Below, piece after piece: positions 13,490-31,396 of a DNA stretch of 34,854 nt. This stretch comes from a virus. The DNA is taken from IMG/VR virus record IMGVR_UViG_3300047476_000932, positions 1-34,854 of that record. One strand, 5' to 3'. Positions within the stretch are counted from its first letter, which is position 1. Each line of letters begins with the position of its first letter. Below the pieces are notes generated by a model. The model made no database searches and was not told the origin of the DNA. It worked only from the letters and a program-made list of their open reading frames with translations. The translations under genes were made by a program, and so were the position numbers.

Positions 13490-13837
13490 ATGGAAAGAAA
13501 AATTTGTCCAGTATGTAAAAAGTTTCCGGTGGCATTAAACTACTATCGCAAGGACAAGCCTTACTATAGGACTACCTGCACCAGTTGCATACATCGAGGG
13601 CGAAAAATAAAGCCCGAGGCACCAAATTGGTTTCGCTCGGGCTATCGTAAAAAAGAAAAGTGCGACAAATGCGGGTTCAAGTTTAAGTTTTTAGAACAAT
13701 CAAATGTCTACTATGTAGATGGCAATACTGAGAACATGCATTGGGCCAATTTAAAAACCATTTGCCTAAACTGTCAGCAAGAATTAAGCAAGATACCGAC
13801 TAGCTGGAAGCCTGGACCTATTAGGCCAGACTTTTAA
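13490..13837 (+). CDS. Four-zinc-knuckle, HNH-like small protein, 115 aa
   Basis: The best start is the ATG at 13490 (MERKICPVC); a longer frame from 13406 adds a poor N-terminus. Four CxxC knuckles: C6/C9, C30/C33, C58/C61 and C92/C95. The C-terminal half (YYVDGNTENMHWANLKTICLNC) has the DGN...NLxxxCxxC skeleton of HNH/endonuclease VII-like zinc nucleases, but the usual His-His before xDGN is Tyr-Tyr and the final His after the last Cys is Gln, so catalysis is doubtful. From memory, close relatives (also beginning with MERKICPVC) occur in many marine T4-like phages. It is the only plus-strand gene between gp18 and 17699, and its end overlaps the convergent dNMP kinase by 17 nt. The upstream region has a direct repeat GGTCCTTTCC (13456-13477), no clear promoter. 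Confidence 0.82.
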   Translation: MERKICPVCKKFPVALNYYRKDKPYYRTTCTSCIHRGRKIKPEAPNWFRSGYRKKEKCDKCGFKFKFLEQSNVYYVDGNTENMHWANLKTICLNCQQELSKIPTSWKPGPIRPDF

Positions 13838-14441
13838 GTTGATTATACAAATTCTCAATTGTACTATTGTTATTAATTTCGTGGTCAAACCTGGTTCCTG
13901 CCCATGAGTATTCGCTGGCATGAATACCTTCATTTTCTATCCAGGCTAGTGCTTTTTTATCGCCACGATTTGCACCTGCGGCAATATCGTACCAATGCGG
14001 TTTTGGGCCCCGCTGTATCCAAATAATTTGTGCACCTTGTTCTTTGAGCACTTTGATTTCGTTAGGAAATCTACAATCGCTGATAACAATATTATCTTTG
14101 GATTTTCTAATTTTGTTTTCTAGACTAGCGATCCAGATGTCGTCATGAAAATGTCGTCGAAGAACATCTGTACCCCAATATTGCAGTATCCATCTTGGCG
14201 TTAAATGCTCTATACCAAGTCTGCTTGCCCACCATTGATCAACTTGTTCTCTCCAAGCTCGTGCTTCAGCAGTGCGTCCTTCTAGTAGATCTCTATCCCA
14301 GCCAAACACTGCCGAGACTGCATCCTTGAGTGTGCTGGCAAAACTTTCTCTGCGATATTCGTGAAAGTTAACAAGATAGTCAGCGGCTGTATCTTTGCCA
14401 GATCCAATAAAGCCACAGATGCCAATGATTTTTTTAGTCAT
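13821..14441 (-). CDS. Deoxynucleoside monophosphate kinase (T4 gp1-like)
   Basis: Phosphorylates dNMPs from degraded host DNA to dNDPs for phage DNA synthesis. The start chosen is ATG 14441 (MTKKIIGICGFIGSGKDTAADYL), which places the P-loop GFIGSGKDT at residues 10-18, as in T4 gp1; the longer frame from 14516 overlaps the zinc-ribbon gene and adds unconserved sequence. Further family features: FASTLKDAVSAVFGWDRDLLEGRT (about 37-60), LTPRWILQYWGTDVLRRHF (about 80-98), then NIVISDCRFPNEIKVLKEQGAQIIWIQR (about 117-145), the substrate/lid part. C-terminus FDHEINNNSTIENLYNQL is typical. It overlaps the upstream zinc-ribbon gene by 8 nt and is presumably transcribed from the sigma70-type promoter at 14643-14670. 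Confidence 0.9.
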   Translation of the reverse strand: MTKKIIGICGFIGSGKDTAADYLVNFHEYRRESFASTLKDAVSAVFGWDRDLLEGRTAEARAWREQVDQWWASRLGIEHLTPRWILQYWGTDVLRRHFHDDIWIASLENKIRKSKDNIVISDCRFPNEIKVLKEQGAQIIWIQRGPKPHWYDIAAGANRGDKKALAWIENEGIHASEYSWAGTRFDHEINNNSTIENLYNQLKSLA

Positions 14442-14637
14442 CGATATTGTATTTTCTTTCGATAGATGTTTCGGTAGTCGAAGTCCAAATCTTAATTGGA
14501 CAAGAGGCCTTGCCAATGGTAACTTTAAGTGGCATAAAACAGCCGCATTTCCTGCATATTCGTATATCAGGAAAAAAGTTATTACAAGATTTGCAGTGAT
14601 TATACCGCTCTCGTGCCAGATCTAAATTTACAAACAT
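14434..14637 (-). CDS. Small zinc-ribbon protein, 67 aa
   Basis: Cysteines at residues 15, 18, 28, 31, 33 and 46 in the pattern CKSCNNF...CRKCGCFMPLKVTIGKASCP. From memory, this layout, including CGCFMP and a terminal Cys-Pro, is shared by many small phage zinc-ribbon proteins of unknown role found near metabolic genes. ATG at 14637 has no Shine-Dalgarno, but a TAAAAT -10 box ends 5 nt upstream, so the message may be leaderless. The stop overlaps the dNMP kinase start, implying coupled translation. Confidence 0.8.
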   Translation of the reverse strand: MFVNLDLARERYNHCKSCNNFFPDIRICRKCGCFMPLKVTIGKASCPIKIWTSTTETSIERKYNIDD

Positions 14638-16223: not shown

Positions 16224-17384
16224 TTAGGCAACCTTCAGAAGTAGTGTTTCAGTACCAATCCTGCCATTGAGCTTGACTTCAACGGCTTTGATATCCTTGA
16301 GCCAAGTCCTTAGTGCAACTTTACCAGCCTTAGCAAACTCTTTGAGCTGTTCTTCAGGCTTGCGTAGAGTTTTGGCTACACTTTTGTCTACATCAAACCC
16401 AACGATTGATGTGCCCTTAACGCCAAGTGTTTGGTAACTTGCGGCAATGTACTTACCCAACTTTCGGGTTTTGATGTTGTAAACCCAAAGCTCGCTAGCG
16501 CCAATGATGTCAGCAGGGTTAATGCTAACAATTTTGAGTCCTTTGTCCTCTTTAGCGTACTTAATTTTGGCTACAACCTTTTCTTTGCTAGGAGCCTTTT
16601 TAACACGAGCTTTTTTAGCCGCTTTCTTGACACCGCGATATTGCTCAATTGCTTCAAGCAGGCTGTCAATCCAATTCACTCGCTTTTTAAAGTCGGTGGA
16701 TTTGAAATGGCTATAGGCTTCTTTGAGCTGTGGGTCTGTTTTGGCTTGTGCTTCTGCAAGCTCAGCTCGCCTGCGTTGGTAAAGATTTTCGTATTTTGTC
16801 AACTGGCTCTGAACAACATTGTTGCTAACAAGCCAATCGTAGAACTTAACTGTAGTGTCCAGGTCGTCGTAGTAGCCTTCCAGTTCGCCAATAAGCTCAC
16901 CGGTACGCTCTGCCAGGCGGTCTTGAATAGTTGGGCGCATGGCAACCTGCTCGGGTGTAGCAACCTTGACTTCTTCGTCCGGTTCGCCTTTACTACGCTC
17001 GATAACTTCAAGAATACTCTTGTCCAAAAACTCAATATGACGAGGACGCAAGGGCATTCCCTGCCGATGTGCCATAATAAGACTACAGGCAGTCATGGGC
17101 AACCACTTGTCGTTGGCACGCTCGAAGGCACGGATCTCGTCGCGATCAAATTCAGTGGCAGATTTCATCCACTCAACAACATACTTCTTGCAGTCTTTTT
17201 GACTGTAGTAATAATTGTAGTAATAAAAACTGCGACGAAGCAAATTGTCAAACTTTTCCTCAGACCAATCATGTGCATCTGCTGGCCAAACAGGTTCGCC
17301 GCCAGTGTATTTTTCATCAAAGAAAAGTGGGTTTCGTGCTTTTGTAACTTTAGTTTTAATTTTAACACCAGCAACTGTAGCCAT
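16224..17384 (-). CDS. Conserved phage protein of unknown function with early-type promoter, 386 aa
   Basis: No function assigned. ATG at 17384 with CAGGAG Shine-Dalgarno. Residues 17-33 (ARNPLFFDEKYTGGEPVW) are followed by an aromatic cluster FYYYNYYY at 53-60 and a helical region to about 250. A strongly basic Lys/Ala/Arg/Val linker follows (about 250-280, GVKKAAKKARVKKAPSKEK), then a beta-rich C-terminal domain (ELWVYNIKTRKLGKYIAA... LNGRIGTETLLLKV). The basic linker suggests nucleic-acid contact, which is inference. From memory, homologues are widespread in marine T4-like phages. Unlike its virion-gene neighbours it has a near-consensus sigma70 promoter, so it is probably made early. A 323-codon stop-free frame on the opposite strand is an artefact. 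Confidence 0.88.
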   Translation of the reverse strand: MATVAGVKIKTKVTKARNPLFFDEKYTGGEPVWPADAHDWSEEKFDNLLRRSFYYYNYYYSQKDCKKYVVEWMKSATEFDRDEIRAFERANDKWLPMTACSLIMAHRQGMPLRPRHIEFLDKSILEVIERSKGEPDEEVKVATPEQVAMRPTIQDRLAERTGELIGELEGYYDDLDTTVKFYDWLVSNNVVQSQLTKYENLYQRRRAELAEAQAKTDPQLKEAYSHFKSTDFKKRVNWIDSLLEAIEQYRGVKKAAKKARVKKAPSKEKVVAKIKYAKEDKGLKIVSINPADIIGASELWVYNIKTRKLGKYIAASYQTLGVKGTSIVGFDVDKSVAKTLRKPEEQLKEFAKAGKVALRTWLKDIKAVEVKLNGRIGTETLLLKVA

Positions 17385-17410: not shown

Positions 17411-17439
17411 ATTATACTGTCTTTTGGGTGCAAGGTCAA
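17411..17439 (-). promoter_or_regulatory. Near-consensus sigma70 promoter of the 386-aa gene
   Basis: Minus strand TTGACC (17439-17434), 17-bp spacer, perfect TATAAT (17416-17411). Predicted start near 17404 gives a 20-nt leader containing CAGGAG. The -35 box overlaps the stop codon of the 87-aa gene. Confidence 0.85.
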
Positions 17440-17699
17440 CCGCCCGAAAGATGTGCAAACATTACATACTTTTCTAGTATATCTACAGCATTAACATAAT
17501 ATGTAACTAATTCGTTATACCTTACTGTAATATGTCGTCGTTGTCTGCAAACAACTTCTTCTTTACTTATTTCATCTAATATGTTGACACAGTTATGACT
17601 AAACTTGGCTAGGTCGGCACGAAACTCTCGTTTCTGTATGGCTGTCATTGACGGCAGTAAGTCCGTATAACGCTGTTTGGCCTGCTCGAGTTCGTCCAT
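17436..17699 (-). CDS. Small helical protein of unknown function, 87 aa
   Basis: Unrecognised. MDELEQAKQRYTDLLPSM, then an Arg/Lys-rich helical stretch (QKREFRADLAKFSHNCVNIL, RQRRHITVRYNELVTYYV). No signal or membrane segment. Support for it being real: a TTGACA/TAAAAT promoter sits directly upstream with the -10 box 7 nt from the ATG, the composition is protein-like, and the next gene's promoter begins exactly at its end. No strong Shine-Dalgarno. Confidence 0.65.
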   Translation of the reverse strand: MDELEQAKQRYTDLLPSMTAIQKREFRADLAKFSHNCVNILDEISKEEVVCRQRRHITVRYNELVTYYVNAVDILEKYVMFAHLSGG

Positions 17700-17706
17700 A
17701 ACGCCT

Positions 17707-17736
17707 ATTTTACACTAAACTCCATTGAAGTGTCAA
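17707..17736 (-). promoter_or_regulatory. Sigma70-type promoter, leaderless geometry, for the 87-aa gene
   Basis: Minus strand consensus TTGACA (17736-17731), 18-bp spacer, TAAAAT (17712-17707), then 7 nt to the ATG at 17699. It lies next to the oppositely oriented late promoter at 17740-17747. Confidence 0.65.
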
Positions 17737-20266: not shown

Positions 20267-20691
20267 CTAACGGTGTTGGCGCACTAATTTATGCACAAAA
20301 TACTGGAAGATATTTGTTCTTACTAAGATCGTCCGGTAGCTGGTCCCATACTTGGGGAATACCCGGCGGCAAAGTTGATCCCGGGGAGTCAACTGTCGAA
20401 GGTCTGAACAGAGAAATACACGAGGAACTAGGCGGTAAGATCATCGATCCTAAATTTGTTCCTATAGAAATGTTCACCAGTGGCAACGAACAGTTTGTTT
20501 ACCATACATATTTTATTGCTGTAAACTACGAATTTGTACCCGAACTCAATGATGAACACATTGGTTATGCTTGGGTTCCGTTAACCGCTGTACCCAATCC
20601 ACTACACCCAGGCCTACAAAGAACCTTAACCACTGAAGATATTGTTAAAAAAATTCAGGTGGCCGAGGAGAATCACCGCGTGGCATGTTAA
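20248..20691 (+). CDS. Nudix hydrolase
   Basis: Hydrolyses nucleoside diphosphate-linked compounds; the substrate cannot be read. The Nudix box is present as GGKVDPGESTVEGLNREIHEEL, with G, E, RE and EE in the right spacing (Gx5Ex7REUxEExG). Upstream strands GVGALIYAQNTGRYLFLLRS and WGIPGGK are typical. Start chosen at 20248 (MEFRSITNGVGAL) because TAGGGG lies 4 nt before it; longer starts at 20194 or 20209 would overlap gp15 further and add a basic tail (RGRSIRRRG) not needed by the fold. The 3' end overlaps the convergent HAD phosphatase gene by 47 nt. It may belong functionally with the neighbouring nucleotide-sugar genes, though on the other strand. Confidence 0.85.
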   Translation: MEFRSITNGVGALIYAQNTGRYLFLLRSSGSWSHTWGIPGGKVDPGESTVEGLNREIHEELGGKIIDPKFVPIEMFTSGNEQFVYHTYFIAVNYEFVPELNDEHIGYAWVPLTAVPNPLHPGLQRTLTTEDIVKKIQVAEENHRVAC

Positions 20692-20977
20692 AGTAAGTTT
20701 CAACATTTATAGCTTTATCGTCGATCCAGAGATCATAACTTGGTTTCTTAAAACTCAAACTGGTATATTTAACTCCCCATTGTTTGAGTTGTTGTGTAGT
20801 TAACTCTGACCAGTCTTTACCTGTGGTGCCACCCCGAGCAGTCCAATAGTGTACTTCAAAACCTAAGTTATATAGCTCATTGAAATGTTGTATTCGTGTA
20901 ACATGCGGTTCGGCCTTTTCATAATCGCCATTGGTGTTAGAACATATAGTTCCGTCTATATCAACCATATATTTCAT
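20645..20977 (-). CDS. HAD-family phosphatase (sugar-phosphate type), 110 aa
   Basis: Short HAD enzyme without a cap domain. Motif I MVDIDGTI (nucleophile D6, general acid D8); motif II in HYWTARGGTTG; motif III Lys and motif IV acidic pair in KKPSYDLWIDDKAINV. This arrangement is typical of small HAD proteins in capsule and LPS clusters. Last gene of the sugar operon, overlapping the cupin by 4 nt (ATGA). Because a heptose-type kinase and adenylyltransferase are upstream, the natural hypothesis is a GmhB-like step, removing the C7 phosphate of a heptose bisphosphate, although true GmhB is larger (about 190 aa) and has zinc cysteines that are absent here. Confidence 0.85.
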   Translation of the reverse strand: MKYMVDIDGTICSNTNGDYEKAEPHVTRIQHFNELYNLGFEVHYWTARGGTTGKDWSELTTQQLKQWGVKYTSLSFKKPSYDLWIDDKAINVETYFNMPRGDSPRPPEFF

Positions 20978-21333
20978 CGTTGGCTATCTCCTGGTAAAAT
21001 CCTGTAATTATCTTCAACACTATCGGGTGTGCTAACTTCAATAATTGTGCCTTCTTCTTCACAGATAATCTGATGCGGTAGCAAGGGAGTATTTCTCCAT
21101 GTGTCCCCTGGATTAAGGTAGTGCATCTCTTGTTTTGCATTAGCAGTATCAATAGTTAGCACATAAAATTTTCCATCAAGTACATACCAAGTTTCATCTT
21201 TTTCAGCGTGGAAGTGCATACTGAATCTAGCACCTTTATTAAACTTTAAAAGTTTTCCACAGTACTTGTCGTTGGTTGCCCAAATTAATTCGTGACCCCA
21301 ACCTTTTTCTACAAATCCATCTAGTCTAGTCAT
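20974..21333 (-). CDS. Cupin-domain protein, 119 aa
   Basis: Single conserved beta-barrel. Metal site HxHx4E at H40, H42 and E47 (SMHFHAEKDETWYV) and second-motif His at 87 (LLPHQI), with the usual Gly (VLDGKFYV). The leading KGWGHELIWATNDKYCGKLL resembles the cupin part of mannose-6-phosphate isomerase/guanylyltransferase-like enzymes and small cupins found in LPS clusters. Possible roles are sugar-phosphate isomerase/epimerase or binding; no reaction can be assigned. Coupled by 4-nt overlaps to both kinase and phosphatase genes. Confidence 0.85.
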   Translation of the reverse strand: MTRLDGFVEKGWGHELIWATNDKYCGKLLKFNKGARFSMHFHAEKDETWYVLDGKFYVLTIDTANAKQEMHYLNPGDTWRNTPLLPHQIICEEEGTIIEVSTPDSVEDNYRILPGDSQR

Positions 21334-22103
21334 AGTATTTCCTCTGGTGTTGGTGCATAGACACCCACATGTTGTACTGTTACACCAGCTGCACGATTGG
21401 CATAACTTACAGCCTTGTCCATATTTTTGGTCCGTAAGTACTCAACCACCAATGCCGATAGAAAAGTATCCCCAGCACCACAAACATCAAGAACACCACT
21501 TACTATTCTAGGCAGATATAACCTTCCGTCCCACATAGCACCTTGAGATCCTTGGGTAACAATTAACCAGTTACCACTGGGTAAAGTTTTTGCCCGGGAA
21601 AATTCGTCACTGTTTATTTTTACAAAACAGCCTTCGAATCTGGCAAGGTCATCTTTTTTAGTGTCAATAAAAATTACACCATTGTAAGCATTGCGTACTT
21701 GATCAATAAGATTGTAACTGATTGTTCCTTTATTGTAATCACTGATGACCACAGCATGGTAGCTGTTTATCTGTAACATGGTCATAGAGGACAATTTTAG
21801 TTCTGAGCATACTGCATCGCGGTCTATTCTAATCAAGTGCTGTTTACTGCGCGAATCAATAAGTCGCTCTTTACGGCTAGTTTCGGTATGCAGGTATGTA
21901 ACTTCGCAACCAAGTGCCTTTAAGTTTTCGTTAACATTTCCGGCCATGCCGGCAAATTCAACTTCGTAAGCGTGTTCAAAAATTGGAACTGGTGCTTCTG
22001 GGCTAAGACGAGCAACACGACCATAACGGTATATGTCAGTGCAGTTATCCCCTAGCAATAATATCTTGAATTGCTTTTGTTGTTGAGTGTGGTGTTCTAT
22101 CAT
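21330..22103 (-). CDS. HldE-type (RfaE1) PfkB-family sugar kinase, compact
   Basis: Ribokinase/PfkB fold. Residues 12-42 (FKILLLGDNCTDIYRYGRVARLSPEAPVP) carry the LSPEAPVP signature typical of D-glycero-D-manno-heptose-7-phosphate kinase, the N-terminal half of HldE. Residues 51-57 AGMAGNV replace PGGAANV. The active-site motif DVCGAGDTFLSALV is at 206-219, catalytic base D212. At 257 aa it is shorter than the usual kinase domain (about 310-330); roughly 40 residues of the lid region after CEVTYLH appear deleted. The start at 22103 overlaps the adenylyltransferase gene by 59 nt. Predicted product: heptose 1,7-bisphosphate, if the substrate is as in bacteria. Confidence 0.85.
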   Translation of the reverse strand: MIEHHTQQQKQFKILLLGDNCTDIYRYGRVARLSPEAPVPIFEHAYEVEFAGMAGNVNENLKALGCEVTYLHTETSRKERLIDSRSKQHLIRIDRDAVCSELKLSSMTMLQINSYHAVVISDYNKGTISYNLIDQVRNAYNGVIFIDTKKDDLARFEGCFVKINSDEFSRAKTLPSGNWLIVTQGSQGAMWDGRLYLPRIVSGVLDVCGAGDTFLSALVVEYLRTKNMDKAVSYANRAAGVTVQHVGVYAPTPEEIL

Positions 22104-22440
22104 AAAATTTTATTTCTTTACAGTACTGCTCACCAAGTACCGAACGCCCTTGGTAGTCGCTGCCTTTGACCATGATGTCAGGGCTGTACTTTCTAATAAT
22201 GTTTTCAAGTTCTTGATCTGAATCAAAGTACAGAACACTGTCTACTGCCTTTAAGTTTTGCAGTGCATAGGCTCTGTCTTTTTGATTGTTGACAGGCCTC
22301 GATTGGCCTTTTAATTCTTTGACCCTGCGATCGGTGTCAATGGCTACCAATAATTGGTCGCCAAGGCTTCGTGCATAGTTTAAAAGTTCGATATGTCCTC
22401 GGTGAAGAATATCGAATGTTCCATTTACAAAAATTTTCAT
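22045..22440 (-). CDS. HldE-type (RfaE2) sugar-phosphate nucleotidyltransferase
   Basis: 131-aa cytidylyltransferase-fold enzyme. NGTFDILHRGHIELL holds the HxGH motif (H13-H16); LKGQSRPVNNQKDRAYAL, PDIMVKGSDYQGRSVLG and HSTTKAI follow in order, matching the C-terminal half of HldE (LKGxxRPVNxxxDR; DVLVKGGDY; STT). It should join a nucleotide (ADP for HldE) to a heptose 1-phosphate. In bacteria HldE is often kinase-then-transferase in one polypeptide; here the halves are separate, in reverse gene order, and overlap. The ATG overlaps the stop of the large glycosyltransferase by 4 nt. Confidence 0.9.
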   Translation of the reverse strand: MKIFVNGTFDILHRGHIELLNYARSLGDQLLVAIDTDRRVKELKGQSRPVNNQKDRAYALQNLKAVDSVLYFDSDQELENIIRKYSPDIMVKGSDYQGRSVLGEQYCKEIKFYDRTPHSTTKAIQDIIARG

Positions 22441-25400
22441 GTTCTACGGCGGAAATGATAATCACCATCTGGACCATTATTGCAAAACAGGCCAAGGCAA
22501 TCAAAACCCAATTGGTTCATGTAGTTAATAACTTCGTCCCTAAGAGGTGCACCCTTATTGTATTCAACAACTTGAAGCTCTAGTATTACATCATTTACTG
22601 ATTTAATCAACTCTGTAGCACCTTTTAATATGTCCAATTCAGCACCTTGTACATCCATCTTAAGCAGGTCGGGTGCAGAGAATCCTCTTTCTTTGACTAC
22701 GCTATCTAAACTACGACTAATCAATCTACGACGATGTCGTTCATTAAAGTACTGATCTGCCTGCGGATTAACTGCGGTGTTCTCTCTATAGTAACTGTTT
22801 CCACCCGGGTGTTCTTCATTTTGCCAGAAATCAATTTCAACTCCATCTTGACTACTAAGAACACCCATTTGATATTCGTAACCGTTTTCCCTGTATAGGA
22901 ATTCGCAACTGCTCATTGCTTCAAACAAATAAATTTTTGCACTAGGCCAAATTTGTCGTGCTTCGTTGGTCCAGTGTAGTACACACGATCCAATGTCATA
23001 TATTACTTTTGGTTGAAATCCAGATGCGGCCAACGATGCTAGATAATTAACATGGTCTCTAGGTAGTAGTCGTTGACCACCTAGTTCTCTAAGTCTTGAC
23101 TCAACAGATGCTGGTCTAATACTGGTATCGATGACAAATTCTGCCTGACCAATATGCCGGCAATGGATATCGGTGTCGGCCCAAATTTTAAATCCTGCAC
23201 CTAGTGCTTTACGACAAAAATCAACATCTTCACTGACAGTATTTCTATGATCAATTGCGCTGTGATATTTAAAGTGCGGATAAGGAATAGCTCGCATTAC
23301 TTCAGCTTTGATTAGTACACAGCCGAACCCACAACTGGCTATTTCAACTAAGCCACGACCAACAAGTTTTTCATAAGGTATGTTACTTACACCGCCGTGA
23401 CTGTTGTGCTCATAGACTTCTAAGATGTGTAGCCCGGGCTTACGCTGAATATATAAACCAGAAACCATGTCCTTATTGTGTGCCAATAACTTCTTTAGTG
23501 TGTCAGGTGGAAATGCTATATCCGAGTCTACACTAAACAAGTAATCGTAACCTTTGACTACCCAATCTGCAATTAAATTGCGAACCTGATCTATGTTATA
23601 CCCATAGAAGTATTGAAACACGGTTTCGTAGCCGTCGGGTACTTCAAGATTGTAGATACTTTTAAAAGTTTCTGGTTCAATGTTGCGAGCAGTAGGAATA
23701 GCAATTAATATTTTCTTTTTTGGTGCATTGGCCAATACAGGTTGTGTCTTTGTCTGCACTGTATTTTCTAAAGTCATTTGTGCCTTTACTTGTTGATAGA
23801 CGGGTGTTTCTTTTTCTAGTACGCCGCCGGTAAGTGATCGATCAGATGTTGTTGCGGCAAACTGAGATTGAAACATCATATTGGTAATTAGATAATTAGT
23901 TTTCTTTCGTTCTAATTGTAGATCAAAAATATAGTTATCGCCGTAGTAGATGTCTAGGCCTTTGGGTATATCTTGCCAGGATCGACGATGCATAATCATC
24001 AAGCAACCAAAACCATATGTGTGTTGACCGGTCCATGGGATTATGTCAATGGTACCTGTGGTAACCGGGGGTTGATTAAAATCTGCTGTTCCCGGGCAAA
24101 GTCCAAAAACGCCCTCAGTTGGTGTTACTAGACCTTGAAGCTTTTCAAATAATTTTAAATCAAAAACTACATCATCGTTAACTATGCATACACGATCAAA
24201 TTGACTAGAACGAACGCCAAAGTTCCAGGCAGGGTTGACAAAAATATTCTTTCCAAAGTCATAGATCTTAATCTTAGCATGTTCAGGAAAGTCTGCGGGC
24301 TTTTGACTGTGGTCATTGTCAATGACAATTATTTCGCCTACATAGTCAGACTCGCAAAGAGATTTAACAAAGTTTGTAAACTGATCTGGAACACGCCACA
24401 TTGTGGGCACTATGACTGAAAATTTCTCTACAGGCTTTTTGTTGAGGATAGATCTAGCTGTTCGATTTTGTTCGTCGCCGTTTACCTTATAGTCATTTAA
24501 AGGGCTAGCATCGTTGTAGTTATAGACAACTTCTTGCAGGCACTTAACCTTGGCAGGATCTGCAGCCTCAATTAAACTGTAAAAAGTAGATCCGTCGCCT
24601 CCGGCTCTGTACCAGTTCCCTTGTTCATCTTGGAATGCCGAATCGGGTATAGCATCAATTAGTCGTTGTTTAAATGTTCTTAGATGTGTGTAAGGCAAGA
24701 TCCAATTGAAATGATGTTGTCTATAAGCACGAGCCTGCTTAACTGATTCTGGATAAGGTTGGCTGATTAAAGGAATGTTATCAACCATACTCCAGCAACT
24801 TCCATAGGTAAACTCTGTGGTTCCGTCATAGACGCCGTTGTAGTAGGTAAAAATATCATTGCGATTAACCAGGCTGTCGTCTCCATCGAGTATCATTACA
24901 ATAGCTTCAGGATCTGGTAACTGTCTGAACACATTAACTTGGTTGGCTACTGCACCACGATTTTCAGTGTTATTGATTATGTTAAAACGATCTTGTATAT
25001 CCTCGGGTAGCCGAGCAATGGCTCCAGCAATAGCACCCAAGGTATTGTCAGTGCTGGCATCGTTAACCAAGTATACCTGATAGTTATCATAATCCTGGCA
25101 GGCAATGCTTTCAATGCAACGACCAATATAGTTTTCAGCATTGTAAAAAGTACTAACAATGGCAATTGGTTGTTCTTTACTGGGCTTGTAATGGTCAAAC
25201 TCGGCTGGATTGGTATAACGACGACCCCAGATTCTATGAACTTTCTTGTTTATTTTAGTCACACGGATATAGTCATCGCGAGATAGGTAGTGCCCAGTCT
25301 GTCGATAGAAATGTTGTTTCCATTGTATTGCTACGCTATCCCAACCTGCAATGTCTTTGATGCTGTTACAGTAATATTGTTTCTGTTGGTGCAGATAAGT

Positions 25401-26495
25401 GTCCGTATAAGCTCTGACTGCCATTGCGGCAAACTTTTGTACTTGTTCTGCGCGATTTATGTCCGGAAACAGACCATTGGGCTCAACTGGATAGTCAATT
25501 TGATAGCAGGCCTGATCAAGTGCAATTTCTTCTAGGGCACCAAATCTGCAGGTAATGCTAGGTGTGTTATATAGCAGACTCTCCAGTGTGCTTATTCCGT
25601 AAGTTTCAGGAAATGCACAAGGATAGATCATGTAGCTGGCTTCTGTGAGAATATTTGCTATCTCTCGCTGTGGAATAACACCAGTGAACTCAATGCCCAT
25701 TGTGGCATACTTTGGATCAGCAACCATTCGGCGCCAGTCTTGTTCTTGCTGGTCAGGACCCGAACTGGCGCTAAAACGATAATAGCCACCAATGACTTTT
25801 AATCGAGCAGTGGGAATTTCTCTTTTAACAATGGGCCAAATGTCATTGACCAATGGTACCATGCCTTTGGTTACACTTGCATTATAGACAAACAGGTTTC
25901 GATCTTTGGCTGCTATGTCGATTTCGGATCGATAACTTTTTGCACCGTTGCGAGTAATAAAGAACTTTCTCTTTAGCACTTCAAACATTCTGCGGCGTCC
26001 GTGATTACATGTACCCACATAACTCAAATGGAAATCGCTGAGTGTAAAGATATCTGTGATCCTGTTGCTGGTTGCCAGTTCTTCGATTAGGTTATCACCG
26101 AGACAAAATGTGTCATGCATCCATAGTACACGCATCTTGGCTCTCTCAACTACATTTTGATAAATGTTGTAATTTTGCAGGACCATGGCACGACCATCAC
26201 CTAATAGGTGGTAGTTAGCTGGGTCTACAAATGGAATAACTGTTCGACTGCTAATAACTATGTCGAATTCGATTGGGGCTGCCAGGTCAGCTAAGGGTCT
26301 GTAATTAACTCCGTTATACATGCCTGGTCGAGCATGATCAATGTCGCAGTTGTTAAAAACGGTTACAGAGAATCCAATTTGTGCAAGTTCTTCGGCAATA
26401 AAAGTTACTGCACTTTCCGAGCCGCCTAGTCCTTGACTGTATACTGTGGTGCCATCGTAGGGCAAACCAATTATATCTATAATAGCGATTTTCAT
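22437..26495 (-). CDS. Five-domain fusion: GT-B + three GT-A-like glycosyltransferases + FkbM methyltransferase, 1352 aa
   Basis: Residues 1-400: GT4-like GT-B glycosyltransferase, GLGGSESAV at 22-30, donor-site PETYGISTLES at 296-306 (Ex7E). Residues 442-680: GT2-like GT-A domain, VSTFYNAENYIGRCIESI, VNDASTDNT, metal motif DGDD at 537-540. Residues 690-890: second GT2-like domain, FSVIVPTMWRVPDQF, IDNDHS, VNDD at 772-775. Residues 927-1120: third GT-A-like domain, ILIAIPTARNIEPETFKSI, FSVDSDIAFPPDTL with DSD at 990-992. Residues 1150-1350: FkbM-type SAM methyltransferase, VIYDIGSCVLHW, FEA, LLKMDVQGAELDILKG at 1277-1292. No signal peptide or membrane helix, so it should be cytoplasmic. It heads a five-gene operon with nucleotide-sugar enzymes and starts from a perfect sigma70 promoter with almost no leader. 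It probably builds and O-methyl-caps a glycan on a host surface polymer or on virion proteins. Confidence 0.93.
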   Translation of the reverse strand: MKIAIIDIIGLPYDGTTVYSQGLGGSESAVTFIAEELAQIGFSVTVFNNCDIDHARPGMYNGVNYRPLADLAAPIEFDIVISSRTVIPFVDPANYHLLGDGRAMVLQNYNIYQNVVERAKMRVLWMHDTFCLGDNLIEELATSNRITDIFTLSDFHLSYVGTCNHGRRRMFEVLKRKFFITRNGAKSYRSEIDIAAKDRNLFVYNASVTKGMVPLVNDIWPIVKREIPTARLKVIGGYYRFSASSGPDQQEQDWRRMVADPKYATMGIEFTGVIPQREIANILTEASYMIYPCAFPETYGISTLESLLYNTPSITCRFGALEEIALDQACYQIDYPVEPNGLFPDINRAEQVQKFAAMAVRAYTDTYLHQQKQYYCNSIKDIAGWDSVAIQWKQHFYRQTGHYLSRDDYIRVTKINKKVHRIWGRRYTNPAEFDHYKPSKEQPIAIVSTFYNAENYIGRCIESIACQDYDNYQVYLVNDASTDNTLGAIAGAIARLPEDIQDRFNIINNTENRGAVANQVNVFRQLPDPEAIVMILDGDDSLVNRNDIFTYYNGVYDGTTEFTYGSCWSMVDNIPLISQPYPESVKQARAYRQHHFNWILPYTHLRTFKQRLIDAIPDSAFQDEQGNWYRAGGDGSTFYSLIEAADPAKVKCLQEVVYNYNDASPLNDYKVNGDEQNRTARSILNKKPVEKFSVIVPTMWRVPDQFTNFVKSLCESDYVGEIIVIDNDHSQKPADFPEHAKIKIYDFGKNIFVNPAWNFGVRSSQFDRVCIVNDDVVFDLKLFEKLQGLVTPTEGVFGLCPGTADFNQPPVTTGTIDIIPWTGQHTYGFGCLMIMHRRSWQDIPKGLDIYYGDNYIFDLQLERKKTNYLITNMMFQSQFAATTSDRSLTGGVLEKETPVYQQVKAQMTLENTVQTKTQPVLANAPKKKILIAIPTARNIEPETFKSIYNLEVPDGYETVFQYFYGYNIDQVRNLIADWVVKGYDYLFSVDSDIAFPPDTLKKLLAHNKDMVSGLYIQRKPGLHILEVYEHNSHGGVSNIPYEKLVGRGLVEIASCGFGCVLIKAEVMRAIPYPHFKYHSAIDHRNTVSEDVDFCRKALGAGFKIWADTDIHCRHIGQAEFVIDTSIRPASVESRLRELGGQRLLPRDHVNYLASLAASGFQPKVIYDIGSCVLHWTNEARQIWPSAKIYLFEAMSSCEFLYRENGYEYQMGVLSSQDGVEIDFWQNEEHPGGNSYYRENTAVNPQADQYFNERHRRRLISRSLDSVVKERGFSAPDLLKMDVQGAELDILKGATELIKSVNDVILELQVVEYNKGAPLRDEVINYMNQLGFDCLGLFCNNGPDGDYHFRRRT

Positions 26496-26512
26496 ACGCT
26501 ATTATATAGCGT
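26496..26512. repeat. Palindrome containing the -10 box of the sugar operon
   Basis: ACGCTAT-TAT-ATAGCGT, perfect 7-bp arms, ending right at the ATG. It covers the TATAAT element. No T-run follows on either strand, so an operator is more likely than a terminator. Confidence 0.6.
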
Positions 26513-26529
26513 GTATTTTAGTTTGTCAA
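26501..26529 (-). promoter_or_regulatory. Perfect consensus sigma70 promoter of the sugar operon (leaderless)
   Basis: Minus strand TTGACA (26529-26524), exactly 17 bp, TATAAT (26506-26501), then AGCGT and ATG (26495). All twelve hexamer bases match. Initiation 6-7 nt past the -10 box coincides with the A of the start codon. There is no Shine-Dalgarno. Confidence 0.88.
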
Positions 26530-26531
26530 AA

Positions 26532-29500
26532 TTATTTTGTTTTAACTGATTCTGATAGTGGGGTGAAGTTTTCAGTGTATCGTGCATGACCTCTTGTAAG
26601 CCTAATATCACTTATGTAACCGGTAAACGGTAAACTTGCATCAAACTGCCTTGCGCCAATTCTAAGAGAAACTTGTTCGTTTGCACTTGTAATTGTAACA
26701 CCGGTTGAACTTGTAGATAACGATCCGTTAACATAAATTCGTGTTGTCGTACCGTCGTGCGTAACAGCCACATGAGTCCAAGTATTTGCATTGGCCGTTG
26801 CAGTACCGGCAGTCATATTTGTACTGTCTGTTCTGTAACAGACAACATTACCGGTGCTTAGATAAAGCAAATATCCAAATGTGCCAGAACCGTTTTTATT
26901 AAAAATTCTGCGTTCGGTTCCAGATGTAGTTGGATATAACCACATTTCGATAGTGTAGGATATACCAGATAACTGGTTTAATACACTGTTTGCTATATCC
27001 AAATAATCGCCGGCGCCATCAAAATAAATGCTAGATCCTCCGGCAAATTTAACTACCGAAGTTGAACATTTAACATCAGCAACTGTTTCAATATTCACCT
27101 GCATCGACGAATCGTAAATAGAAGAGCCAGAACCGTTGACTGCTAATACTGTATTTTTTGCCACCGACGAAATATCTAACGGTGCAACTGGAGGAACAAA
27201 ATTACTGGTATAAATTGCAAGTCCTTTAACCACCCTGACATCAGAAATAAACCCAGTGAATATGTTACTGCCAGTATTTGATGCTCCAATGCTAGGCGAC
27301 GAAGCAGACTGACCCAGTGTTGACGAGTTTGTCAATGTTGTAGCTGTGGCAACACCGTTGACATATAATTTAATAGAGCTACCGCTACGAACACAGGCAA
27401 CATGTGTCCAAGAATTGTTTACTGGTGCCGGAGTTGTTCCTATATCAGTACCAGAGCCTGCATTTAAACTAACTTGCCATCTAGTAGTGAACCACCGAAC
27501 ATCAAATTCAGTGGTACCAGACTTTACACCAAACAATACCTGCGGTGATCCTCCGCCGGTGTTTGTAAAATACATCCACCCTTCAATTGTAAAATCTCCT
27601 GGAAACAAATAAATTGGTGCCGACGAAACTGTTAGATAATCCCCTGTGCCATCAAAGTACATGCTGCCAGCATATGTTGCAGGAGTATAGGATTGCCTAG
27701 AATATGAAGCGGTAAACGGTGCAAAAGTAGTTGGTTGACTATTTCCATTGGCAGTCACAGTAAAAACATTAGTCGAGTTATCAACAAAAGTGTTATTTTG
27801 ACAAGTTAGTAGACTGGTATCAGTTATAGCAGTTAGTGGTGCAGTAGGTGTTGTAAATGCTGTAGTATAAAGAGCTGTGCCTTTAATTATTCTTACATTA
27901 GAAATATAACCAGTGAAATCTCTAAAAATTGTATCACCAACTGCTGAGTAATTTAAAGCACCAATGTAATTTAATGTACCGTTATAAACTGCACCGGAAG
28001 TATAAGTAGATCCAATTTGTGTTCCATTAAGAAATACTCTAATTGACGATCCTGATTTTGATACTGCAACATGGTACCAGGTGTTAACTACTAGAGTAGG
28101 ACCAATGGCACCTGTGTTAATTCCCCAACTTAGGCTAGTGTTTGCTTGATGGAATGTTATTCCATTGTTTTCTATACCCAATCTTACAGCAGCATAAGCG
28201 TCAGTATTACCATTTAACCATATTAATGTTTGTGAGGCACTGACACTGCTAGTAGCATAGAACCAACATTCTGCTGTGTAATCCGCAGTTAGTGTTAGTG
28301 CGGTAGTATTAGTTATACTTAGATAATCATCTACACCGTCGAAGTATGCACTGTAGTATGGTGCAGGTAATACAGTTCCTGCAAATGGGCTAAACTTTTG
28401 CACTCTTACATCGCCGTTCCTAGTAAGAGTGAAGTTATTCGAGGAATCGTCAATAAAATAAGGGTCAGTACAAGTCAATAAACTTGTATTTGCAATTGGT
28501 TGTAAAGGTGTACCACTTGGGGTAAAGTTGGCGGTGTAGAGTGCGGTGCCTTTTATTATTCGTAGATTAGAAATATAACCTGAAAAATAATTTTCAAATC
28601 CTGTGTATAAAAACCCACCAATAACGGTCAACCGAGAAGTAACTGTTTTTGTAATAGTCACCGGTGTTCCCGAAACACCATTGACAAACACACGCACAGT
28701 TCCTGAATTTCTTGAAACCGCAATATGATTCCAAGTATTAGCGGTGAGTGTTGGGCCATATGCATAAGCCTGACTCGAATCATCTCTAACTTGATAAGTT
28801 GCCTGAGCGTTAGTGGCATCGAGCACAAAATAATTATTATTAGTGCCGCCGTCTTGATTACTTACAACAGGTTTACCTGCACTTACTGTTTTATAAAACC
28901 AAGCCTCAATGGTAAAATCACCAGTGCCAAAATTAGAAACTGTGTTGGGTGCAGTTAAATAATCACCTGTGCCATCAAAGTAATTACTCCAACCTGCACC
29001 ATAAGGACTAAATGTACCTTGTGTCGGGTTACCAAGCCTGTTGATCACTGAGCTATTAGGACCAGCATCAATGAATACTGAATTATTTGCTGGTCTGTTA
29101 TATTGACAAATTAATAGATTTGTATTTGCAACTGCGGCTAACGGTGCAGAGGGAACAGTAATAGTTGTTTGTGTTGGATCATATACTGTGCTACCAACTA
29201 CTAATCTAACATCGCTCATGTAGCCAGAGAAATTTGTTAATTCTATACTTGCACCAATTCTACTAGATGTAGAATAACTAGTTGATATTGCAACTGCCCC
29301 AGTAGATGACCTAACACCATTTAAAAATACTGTTGTTTGATTTGAGGCTCCTCTACAAACAACCAAATGATACCATTGTCTAACAGTCATTGTCGGAACT
29401 ACAAATCCTGTTGCACTATTATTATAGGCATCGACATTTATCTGAGTTGCGCTATTTAAACGGATATTGAGCCCTGAGCCTGCTGTTGTTCCTAGCATAC

Positions 29501-31019
29501 CAATAATACCAAATGTACCAGTATTATAAAACCAACACTCAAATGTATATTGATTTGACCCGATGCTTACACCCGACCATGTTAATTCGTCACCAGTACC
29601 ATCAAAATAGGTACTACCATATGAGGCATAACTGGTATTGGGTGCAAATGGCTCAAATGCACTCACTGACACATCACCGGTTCGTGTAATTGTAAAGTTG
29701 TTTGATGAACTATCAATAAGTCTATTATCCCGACAAGTTAGTAAACTAGTTCCAGATATTACTGCAAGAGGAGCAGTGGGTAGAGTAAATGCCGAAGTGT
29801 AAACTGTATTATTTTTTACATAGCGAACATTAGAAATATATCCTGTTACTAAATATTGTCCCGCTAGATCGCCGCCGCCATGAGCGATAGCAATACCAGT
29901 TGCAGATCCATTTAGAGTTTTTCCAGTTGTTGTTGCTCTACTGACTCCATTTACATAAAATGTTCCAGACCCATCTGACCCCATAACCATTGCAACATGA
30001 TTCCAAGTGCCTATTACAATAGCAACACCCACATCAACTGCGGTTGCATCACCCCAAGAAATTCTCCAATTTCCGCCACTGGTTGATCCAATAAACCAGT
30101 ATGGATTGTAATTGTTGGCCCCTGTTGTACTAGCAACTATAAATGAAAAATTTGTAATAGAAGTATAATATACCCATGCTTCTATAGTAAATCCGTTAGT
30201 GCTAGCTATAAATTCATTGCTGTTAGATGTTGTTAGGTAATCACCAGTACCATCAAAGAAATTACTATAGTATCCAGGGGTATAAGGATTAAAGTTATTT
30301 GGTCGGGTGTCGCCAGTTACTGTAACAAGAAAATTATTTGTACTAGAATCTTTGATAAAGGTATTACCAGTATTGCCAGCACTAATTAATGTAGTAACAT
30401 AACTAAAATAAGGATCGCCAACTGAAATTGTAATACTAAACGATCTAGGACTATCCTGTAATTCAGCATCTGTAGCAAGAATGGTAAAGTTATAAACTGT
30501 TTCCGACGAAAGCCCTGTGACTGTACCACTAATTAATCCCACATTGGATAATGTTAAACCCACAGGCAAACTGCTACCGGCCTGTAAAGAATAGGTACTT
30601 GCACCTGTGGCATTGAGTTGCAAACTAATAACTGCGTCAGCATCACCAGTAAGACTGCTACTGGTTACCCAAGTTGGAGTTGTACTAAATGTTACTGCAT
30701 TAACTCGAATAGCAGTATCACCATTGGGATTTACCAAGTATAGTATATAGGTGCCGGCTGCTGTTGCCGGTAATTGTGCTCGGACTTCAGAGCTACTAAC
30801 AAAAGTAACACTAGTAGCGGCAGTTGATTCAATTAAGACTTGGCAACCGGTGACAAAGTTTGCACCAATGATTTTAATATAGCCGCCGGCTATGTCTACA
30901 GCAGTATCGTCAAGTACAGTATAACCACTGTCTGTTACTTGTACACCAGTGATGCGGGGACCCGCCATAATGGCCAACGCTGAATCTTGAATGTTATTGG
31001 TTGTTACTTTTAATACCAT
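26532..31019 (-). CDS. Large adhesin/tail fibre with six LamG-like repeats, 1495 aa
   Basis: Residues 1-112: IPT/TIG-like immunoglobulin domain (GPRITGVQVTDSGYTVLDDT; GGYIKIIGANF; VTFVSSSEVRAQLPATAAGTY). Residues about 115-200: putative Ig/cadherin-like domain (LPVGLTLSNVGLISGTVTGL). Residues about 250-1495: six tandem concanavalin/LamG-like units of roughly 205 aa, each starting with a YFDGTGDYLT-type strand, followed by FTIEAWFY, WYHVAV, VFLNG, GYISNVRIVKGTALYT, and separated by DSSSNNFTITRTGD-type linkers. LamG folds commonly bind glycans, so this is a likely receptor-binding fibre. No transmembrane helix. It lies 4 nt after the stop of the 113-aa IPT mini-protein and directly upstream of the glycosyltransferase operon. 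Confidence 0.9.
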   Translation of the reverse strand: MVLKVTTNNIQDSALAIMAGPRITGVQVTDSGYTVLDDTAVDIAGGYIKIIGANFVTGCQVLIESTAATSVTFVSSSEVRAQLPATAAGTYILYLVNPNGDTAIRVNAVTFSTTPTWVTSSSLTGDADAVISLQLNATGASTYSLQAGSSLPVGLTLSNVGLISGTVTGLSSETVYNFTILATDAELQDSPRSFSITISVGDPYFSYVTTLISAGNTGNTFIKDSSTNNFLVTVTGDTRPNNFNPYTPGYYSNFFDGTGDYLTTSNSNEFIASTNGFTIEAWVYYTSITNFSFIVASTTGANNYNPYWFIGSTSGGNWRISWGDATAVDVGVAIVIGTWNHVAMVMGSDGSGTFYVNGVSRATTTGKTLNGSATGIAIAHGGGDLAGQYLVTGYISNVRYVKNNTVYTSAFTLPTAPLAVISGTSLLTCRDNRLIDSSSNNFTITRTGDVSVSAFEPFAPNTSYASYGSTYFDGTGDELTWSGVSIGSNQYTFECWFYNTGTFGIIGMLGTTAGSGLNIRLNSATQINVDAYNNSATGFVVPTMTVRQWYHLVVCRGASNQTTVFLNGVRSSTGAVAISTSYSTSSRIGASIELTNFSGYMSDVRLVVGSTVYDPTQTTITVPSAPLAAVANTNLLICQYNRPANNSVFIDAGPNSSVINRLGNPTQGTFSPYGAGWSNYFDGTGDYLTAPNTVSNFGTGDFTIEAWFYKTVSAGKPVVSNQDGGTNNNYFVLDATNAQATYQVRDDSSQAYAYGPTLTANTWNHIAVSRNSGTVRVFVNGVSGTPVTITKTVTSRLTVIGGFLYTGFENYFSGYISNLRIIKGTALYTANFTPSGTPLQPIANTSLLTCTDPYFIDDSSNNFTLTRNGDVRVQKFSPFAGTVLPAPYYSAYFDGVDDYLSITNTTALTLTADYTAECWFYATSSVSASQTLIWLNGNTDAYAAVRLGIENNGITFHQANTSLSWGINTGAIGPTLVVNTWYHVAVSKSGSSIRVFLNGTQIGSTYTSGAVYNGTLNYIGALNYSAVGDTIFRDFTGYISNVRIIKGTALYTTAFTTPTAPLTAITDTSLLTCQNNTFVDNSTNVFTVTANGNSQPTTFAPFTASYSRQSYTPATYAGSMYFDGTGDYLTVSSAPIYLFPGDFTIEGWMYFTNTGGGSPQVLFGVKSGTTEFDVRWFTTRWQVSLNAGSGTDIGTTPAPVNNSWTHVACVRSGSSIKLYVNGVATATTLTNSSTLGQSASSPSIGASNTGSNIFTGFISDVRVVKGLAIYTSNFVPPVAPLDISSVAKNTVLAVNGSGSSIYDSSMQVNIETVADVKCSTSVVKFAGGSSIYFDGAGDYLDIANSVLNQLSGISYTIEMWLYPTTSGTERRIFNKNGSGTFGYLLYLSTGNVVCYRTDSTNMTAGTATANANTWTHVAVTHDGTTTRIYVNGSLSTSSTGVTITSANEQVSLRIGARQFDASLPFTGYISDIRLTRGHARYTENFTPLSESVKTK

Positions 31020-31388: not shown

Positions 31389-31396
31389 TATTTATT
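31389..31396 (-). promoter_or_regulatory. Late-type promoter before the IPT/LamG fibre genes (AATAAATA)
   Basis: Minus-strand AATAAATA in an A/T-rich gap, 23 nt upstream of the ATG at 31365. Same variant as before gp18. Confidence 0.45.

Follow-up and report, generated by a model that had tools for sequence, protein, structure and literature searches.

The window, that is, the whole stretch of DNA analysed (a virus record of 34.9 kb, 34,854 nucleotides), encodes a terminase, tail sheath and tail tube proteins, a gp15-type sheath stabiliser, a LamG-repeat fibre and other virion proteins. By its terminase, the window is closest, among cultured phages, to the Pseudomonas jumbo phages PA5oct, MIJ3 and Paride (approximately 54% identity). 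Among the virion genes, in a T4-like late region, lies a five-gene heptose-type operon, which is preceded directly by the co-directional fibre gene:

26532..31019, minus strand: LamG-repeat virion/fibre gene, directly upstream of the operon
22437..26495, minus strand: operon gene 1, a fused glycosyltransferase/FkbM methyltransferase (GT) of 1352 aa, with its ATG at 26495
22045..22440, minus strand: HldE-type adenylyltransferase (rfaE domain II; heptose-1-phosphate adenylyltransferase-like), overlapping the GT gene by 4 nt
21330..22103, minus strand: HldE-type heptose-7-phosphate kinase-like protein (rfaE domain I/PfkB)
20974..21333, minus strand: cupin
20645..20977, minus strand: small capsule-type phosphatase-like protein (weak EcbF/BcbF match)

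Short overlaps join most neighbouring genes of the operon. An earlier note on this DNA had described a sugar operon behind a promoter, and the GT/FkbM gene, the two HldE-type halves, the cupin and the phosphatase-like gene bear that description out. The two halves of HldE are encoded here by separate overlapping genes, with the C-terminal domain first (22045-22440, then 21330-22103, both on the minus strand). Elsewhere in the window, the dNMP kinase ORF at 13821-14516 (minus strand) probably starts at an internal methionine (MTKKIIGICGFIGSGK) and not at the listed TTG.

The gap of 36 nt between the fibre and GT genes carries the two elements of a sigma70 promoter:

26524..26529, minus strand: -35 hexamer TTGACA, belonging to a 12/12 promoter match with a 17-bp spacer
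26501..26506, minus strand: -10 hexamer TATAAT, conserved in homologues, followed by AGCGT (5 nt) and the ATG at 26495-26493

The perfect consensus reported earlier, TTGACA-17-TATAAT with its -10 box 5 nt from the ATG, was confirmed on the minus strand from 26529 to 26501, and the 17-bp spacing falls within the 16-18 bp of sigma70 promoters. No other 12/12 match exists in the window. Dinucleotide shuffles of the window contained a mean of 0.08 perfect matches, and since at least one was present in 8 of 100 shuffles the match by itself is just mildly improbable; chance is excluded by the placement and conservation of the promoter, not by the match alone. Neither a Shine-Dalgarno sequence nor a late motif was found before the GT ATG at 26495, and AGG-type sites are present in most late-motif structural genes of the window. 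Between 15000 and 34854 there are four sigma70-like sites with 11 or 12 matches out of 12, all at gene starts, at distances of 5, 7, 26 and 34 nt from the ATG. Apart from the GT promoter, they include the following two:

17707..17736, minus strand: near-leaderless sigma70-like site of an 87-aa gene (17436-17699), TTGACA-18-TAAAAT at 7 nt from the ATG
17411..17439, minus strand: long-class sigma70-like site TTGACC-17-TATAAT, 26 nt before the ATG of the gene at 16224-17384, with a CAGGAG Shine-Dalgarno sequence

Perfect -10 sites also precede the ATG, by 6-7 nt, in homologues of the 87-aa gene from three other loci (L194, L108 and L044).

The start regions of GT homologues were compared using 80 viral contigs, which yielded 44 non-redundant loci. 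In 18 of the 44 the ATG follows a sigma70 site by 5-11 nt, and no more than 1.5% of shuffles match that site. Its usual form is TTGAC(A/C)-16/17-TATAAT-TAATAGC-ATG, the form in the window being TATAAT-AGCGT-ATG, and the remaining homologues lack the promoter element. Loci without the sigma70 site (L005, L052, L063 and L075 among others) often have TTAAATA/TTAAGTA-like motifs directly before the start codon, which are possibly a late-type replacement.

Sites of the form TTGAC-N-TATAAT number in the tens in each related long record, compared with 0-3 for the reversed pattern. For 357 distinct sigma70 sites in related loci (-35 with at least 5/6 matches, -10 perfect), the distance to the first ORF-opening ATG was measured, and two classes were distinguished. 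This ATG lies 5-9 nt from the -10 box at 56 of the sites (mode 6 nt) and 10-19 nt away at just 13; a further peak follows at 24-35 nt, where the starts are led by Shine-Dalgarno sequences. Counted as start positions after the -10 box, the short class comprises 4, 32, 13 and 1 sites at 6, 7, 8 and 9 bp, plus 6 at 10, a spread resembling the use of positions 6, 7, 8 and 9 measured for RNA polymerase (8, 55, 29 and 7%, respectively; PMC5730371). The A of the ATG thus falls at the usual start of RNA polymerase and leaderless mRNAs are therefore expected for this class, apart perhaps from around ten near sites at which an in-frame ATG with a Shine-Dalgarno sequence follows further on. Among the matches listed for perfect promoters, an ORF of at least 40 aa opens at 81 of 120 sites with the ATG at 6 nt, compared with 37 of 118 with the ATG at 14 nt. 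The short class is absent from the T4 control (99 kb, looser sites), with an ATG ORF 4-9 nt away at only 1 of 39 sites. In G016, G017 and related records, early-type clusters with repeated promoters and a common leader (TATAATacacac...aaggagc-ATG) were also observed; this combination is a second standardised promoter-leader module.

The 5 nt found in the window corresponds to start position 6, next to the mode of the short class (6 nt, position 7). Judged from the sequence, the GT mRNA made from its own promoter should therefore be leaderless. The earlier suggestion that transcription begins at the start codon is supported as a prediction, given that the promoter and its short distance recur in diverged homologues and that such sites form a distinct class in related phages; the same evidence supports a host-type sigma70 promoter as the predicted driver of the operon.

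The view that neighbouring genes use late promoters held in part. A T4-type late sigma factor (gp55 family, phrog_234) is encoded by 12 of the 14 related long records, and ATAAATA/CTAAATA motifs occur 26-38 nt upstream of several structural genes in the window, including a 113-aa gene that precedes the LamG gene. The LamG fibre gene, however, has no such motif of its own. The likely source of RNA reading through into the operon is one of these sites:

31389..31395, minus strand: ATAAATA motif resembling a late promoter, upstream of the 113-aa gene and of the fibre gene that follows it

The layout would allow read-through, the upstream gene being on the same strand 36 nt away with no terminator-like site on the LamG/GT strand in the gap between them.

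A short dyad overlies the -10 box, as had been pointed out:

26496..26512, minus strand: dyad ACGCTAT-ATA-ATAGCGT, centred on the -10 box and abutting the GT ATG

Its 7-bp arms are perfect. In the window, however, perfect repeats of this kind (inverted, 7-bp arms, loop of 3 nt) outnumber those in shuffles about fivefold (9 and 1.9, respectively), so the dyad is unremarkable by itself. Few close relatives keep it; it is intact in the window, its outer pairs are broken in L013 and it is altered in L115. The earlier note took the dyad to be an operator at which a phage or host repressor would control the GT promoter, and the perfect 7-bp arms over the -10 box, together with the recurrence of -10 dyads abutting the ATG in the exonuclease loci discussed below, are in keeping with this. 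However, the dyad sequence is poorly conserved among GT homologues, in which complementarity across the ATG is conserved instead, and a dyad kept at fixed spacing among relatives was found in neither the GT nor the exonuclease loci. The loop of the cross-ATG repeat ranges in length from 9 to 13 nt, and the exonuclease arms differ between phages yet stay complementary. RNA pairing fits this variable spacing and the unrelated exonuclease arm sequences better than a protein-binding sequence does. An operator was accordingly rejected as the main explanation of the dyad, and we regard it as unlikely. Two observations may be added on similar repeats. Read on the plus strand, the dyad resembles a weak terminator antisense to the operon, which was set aside, and in L138 a 255-aa gene (18118, minus strand) has an 11-bp inverted repeat, AGTATCGTAAA/TTTACGATACT, which covers a promoter-like region and ends at the ATG.

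A longer inverted repeat that the earlier note had missed spans the ATG, pairing 26506-26497 with 26487-26478:

26497..26506, minus strand: 5' arm of the predicted hairpin, TATAATAGCG, formed by the -10 box and discriminator; upstream of the predicted transcription start and so expected on read-through RNA only
26478..26487, minus strand: 3' arm, CGCTATTATA, spanning the last part of codon 3 and on to codon 6

Because transcription is predicted to start downstream of the 5' arm, RNA from the local promoter would lack that arm, and the start region would be covered by the predicted hairpin only on longer transcripts. The read-through RNA of the window folds with z = -3.0. Opening the start region is predicted to cost approximately 8 kcal/mol on the read-through RNA of the GT and exonuclease genes, compared with approximately 5 in controls, and 0.5-1.3 kcal/mol on leaderless RNA.

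Codon conservation in the GT gene speaks for this pairing. All of the 27 GT loci that bear the promoter, a set with AATAGC-type discriminators, have GCT as codon 4, and 93% have ATT as codon 5; these codons rank first and third of 107 degenerate codons, and in the 21 loci without the 5' arm they are ordinary (42% and 52%). The predicted fold of the region from -22 to +33 is -10.1 kcal/mol in loci with the 5' arm against -6.3 for a synonymous-codon null; without the arm the values are -4.4 and -5.6 kcal/mol. All changes in the core helix keep pairing (four C-G to U-G and one A-U to G-U; 99.3% paired), the changes in the 5' arm being those that preserve a G-U pair, and loop length varies from 9 to 13 nt. 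Two-sided compensation was not seen in the core helix and covariation was not above that of shuffles; fixed-structure covariation was rejected for the GT helix on the latter result. The outer helix is paired in just 64% of cells, swapping promoter and start halves among GT loci gave only p = 0.02, and two loci (L115 and L265) have the promoter with no cross-ATG helix. In many GT loci the AUG lies in the loop rather than in the stem.

Among the other near-leaderless genes, the clearest case of such a hairpin is the exonuclease phrog_298. Eighty homologues were fetched and 81 non-redundant loci were compared, of which 67 have a near-leaderless promoter; in the eight loci checked for context, a co-directional gene lies 31-63 nt upstream. 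Co-adaptation was assessed by joining the half up to the -10 box to the half after it, either from the same locus or swapped between loci, with permutations. For the 32 exonuclease loci with TATAAT, halves from the same locus fold at -11.0 kcal/mol compared with -6.4 for swapped halves (z -12.4, with no permutation coming near), and z was -9.5 in a stricter set. Neither leadered genes (z -0.8) nor other leaderless genes (z -1.3) showed co-adaptation. Arm sequences and register vary from phage to phage while the arms still match each other, which indicates conservation of complementarity and not of a sequence for protein binding. In PA5oct the exonuclease gene lies within a run of genes for virion proteins found by mass spectrometry, and in Paride it is nested among virion genes; in both phages the annotated start is the predicted leaderless ATG, at 158242 in NC_071039 for PA5oct and at 29530 in OR805295 for Paride. 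In a subclass of exonuclease loci (L547, L584, L522 and L576 among others) TATAAT is replaced by TAATAT(ATA), and the arms directly before the ATG covary (CCTGTA/TACAGG, AGTGTA/TACACT and CGTGTA/TACACG).

The hairpin was rejected as a rule for every leaderless phage gene, with a mean z of -0.13 for 76 genes with a perfect promoter at 6 nt and a swap z of -1.3. The other leaderless genes of these phages have no such hairpin, and homologues of the 87-aa window gene (17436-17699) in L194, L044 and L108 have no cross-ATG helix. That window gene is divergent from its upstream neighbour, and read-through would therefore not be expected there.

It could be argued that the leaderless sigma70 promoter is the only functional element, and that the repeat across the ATG is a functionless product of descent and A+T-rich codons. 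The lack of the hairpin in most other leaderless genes of these phages agrees with such a view, as does core pairing without two-sided compensation in the GT gene. On the other hand, codons 4 and 5 are among the most conserved degenerate codons only where the 5' arm exists, and the two halves of the exonuclease start region are strongly co-adapted. A functionless repeat therefore appears doubtful to us.

The reading that we prefer begins with a host sigma70 promoter in the 36-nt gap, from which RNA polymerase would start at or next to the A of the GT ATG, so that ribosomes could begin on a 5'-terminal AUG with no Shine-Dalgarno sequence. The promoter DNA (-10 box and discriminator) would double as the 5' arm of a hairpin with the first codons as its 3' arm, and both arms would be present only on RNA entering from upstream, such as late transcripts leaving the fibre operon. 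The ribosome landing site would be closed on that read-through RNA since both arms are present there. The gene would then be on from its own promoter while the host-type RNA polymerase is active, that is, early in infection, and silent on late read-through RNA. It seems probable that the leaderless message is translatable and the late read-through message masked in this way, by the logic of T4 gene e and I-TevI but with a host promoter and reversed timing. One argument against masking is that read-through RNA with no Shine-Dalgarno sequence might be poorly translated regardless.

Transcription might instead start upstream or at a late-type promoter, in which case the hairpin would simply belong to the 5' UTR of the usual mRNA. 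Relatives do encode a late sigma factor, and in some GT homologues that lack the sigma70 site TTAAATA-like motifs directly precede the ATG. Yet it is with TATAAT, not with a late motif, that the -35 box and the 16-17-bp spacing are conserved, and a hairpin on the main mRNA, which has no Shine-Dalgarno sequence, would block expression. We consider such a start very unlikely.

The textbook example of a hairpin-embedded promoter, which delays a gene to the late phase, comes from T4. In the T4 genes e, soc, 49 and I-TevI, a hairpin that blocks translation contains the promoter in its 5' arm. This promoter is of the phage late type (TATAAATA) and its RNA has a leader and a Shine-Dalgarno sequence, so that expression is off in the early phase and on in the late phase (PMC3014915, PMC2988022). 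The GT and exonuclease genes resemble these in the predicted helix over the start region on longer upstream transcripts, in an adjacent promoter predicted to yield a shorter, translatable RNA without the 5' arm, and in their position within transcription units of another time class. They differ in having a host sigma70 promoter and no gp55-type late promoter, with an RNA predicted to be leaderless, and the order of on and off should therefore be the reverse of that in T4. What is new is the combination of this anatomy with a host promoter and a predicted reversal of timing, a variant and not a new category. A literature search of partial coverage found no description of phage leaderless promoters with such hairpins.

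Leaderless genes with a -10 box adjoining the ORF are common in Deinococcus-Thermus (PMC12340547). As in the present loci, the -10 box of these genes and of lambda cI (transcribed from PRM) is only a few nucleotides from the ATG and a Shine-Dalgarno sequence is lacking; their messages begin at or close to the start codon, as is predicted here. The present loci differ from both in having a consensus -35 box too, in the second, Shine-Dalgarno-led sigma70 class in the same genomes, and in the cross-ATG hairpin added in two gene families. Phage morons, or cargo genes, are non-virion genes with their own promoter. The GT operon is similar to them as a non-virion operon in a late region with its own host-type promoter, but no flanking terminator was found and its polarity is that of the surrounding late genes.

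More tentatively, and with somewhat less confidence than for the GT gene itself, it is possible that a family of T4-like large phages marks non-virion genes within late operons by a leaderless sigma70 promoter that is also the 5' arm of a silencing hairpin, a design that would be used for at least two unrelated genes and reach as far as PA5oct and Paride. The exonuclease gene of either phage would allow the proposal to be tested in culture. Phages would also have leaderless mRNAs as a regular class, and not as a curiosity of lambda cI, with the warning that Shine-Dalgarno sequences cannot be used to call the start codons of such genes. If the proposal is true, the genes concerned would be expressed only early despite their position in late operons, which would explain how metabolic genes are kept in the virion clusters of large phages.
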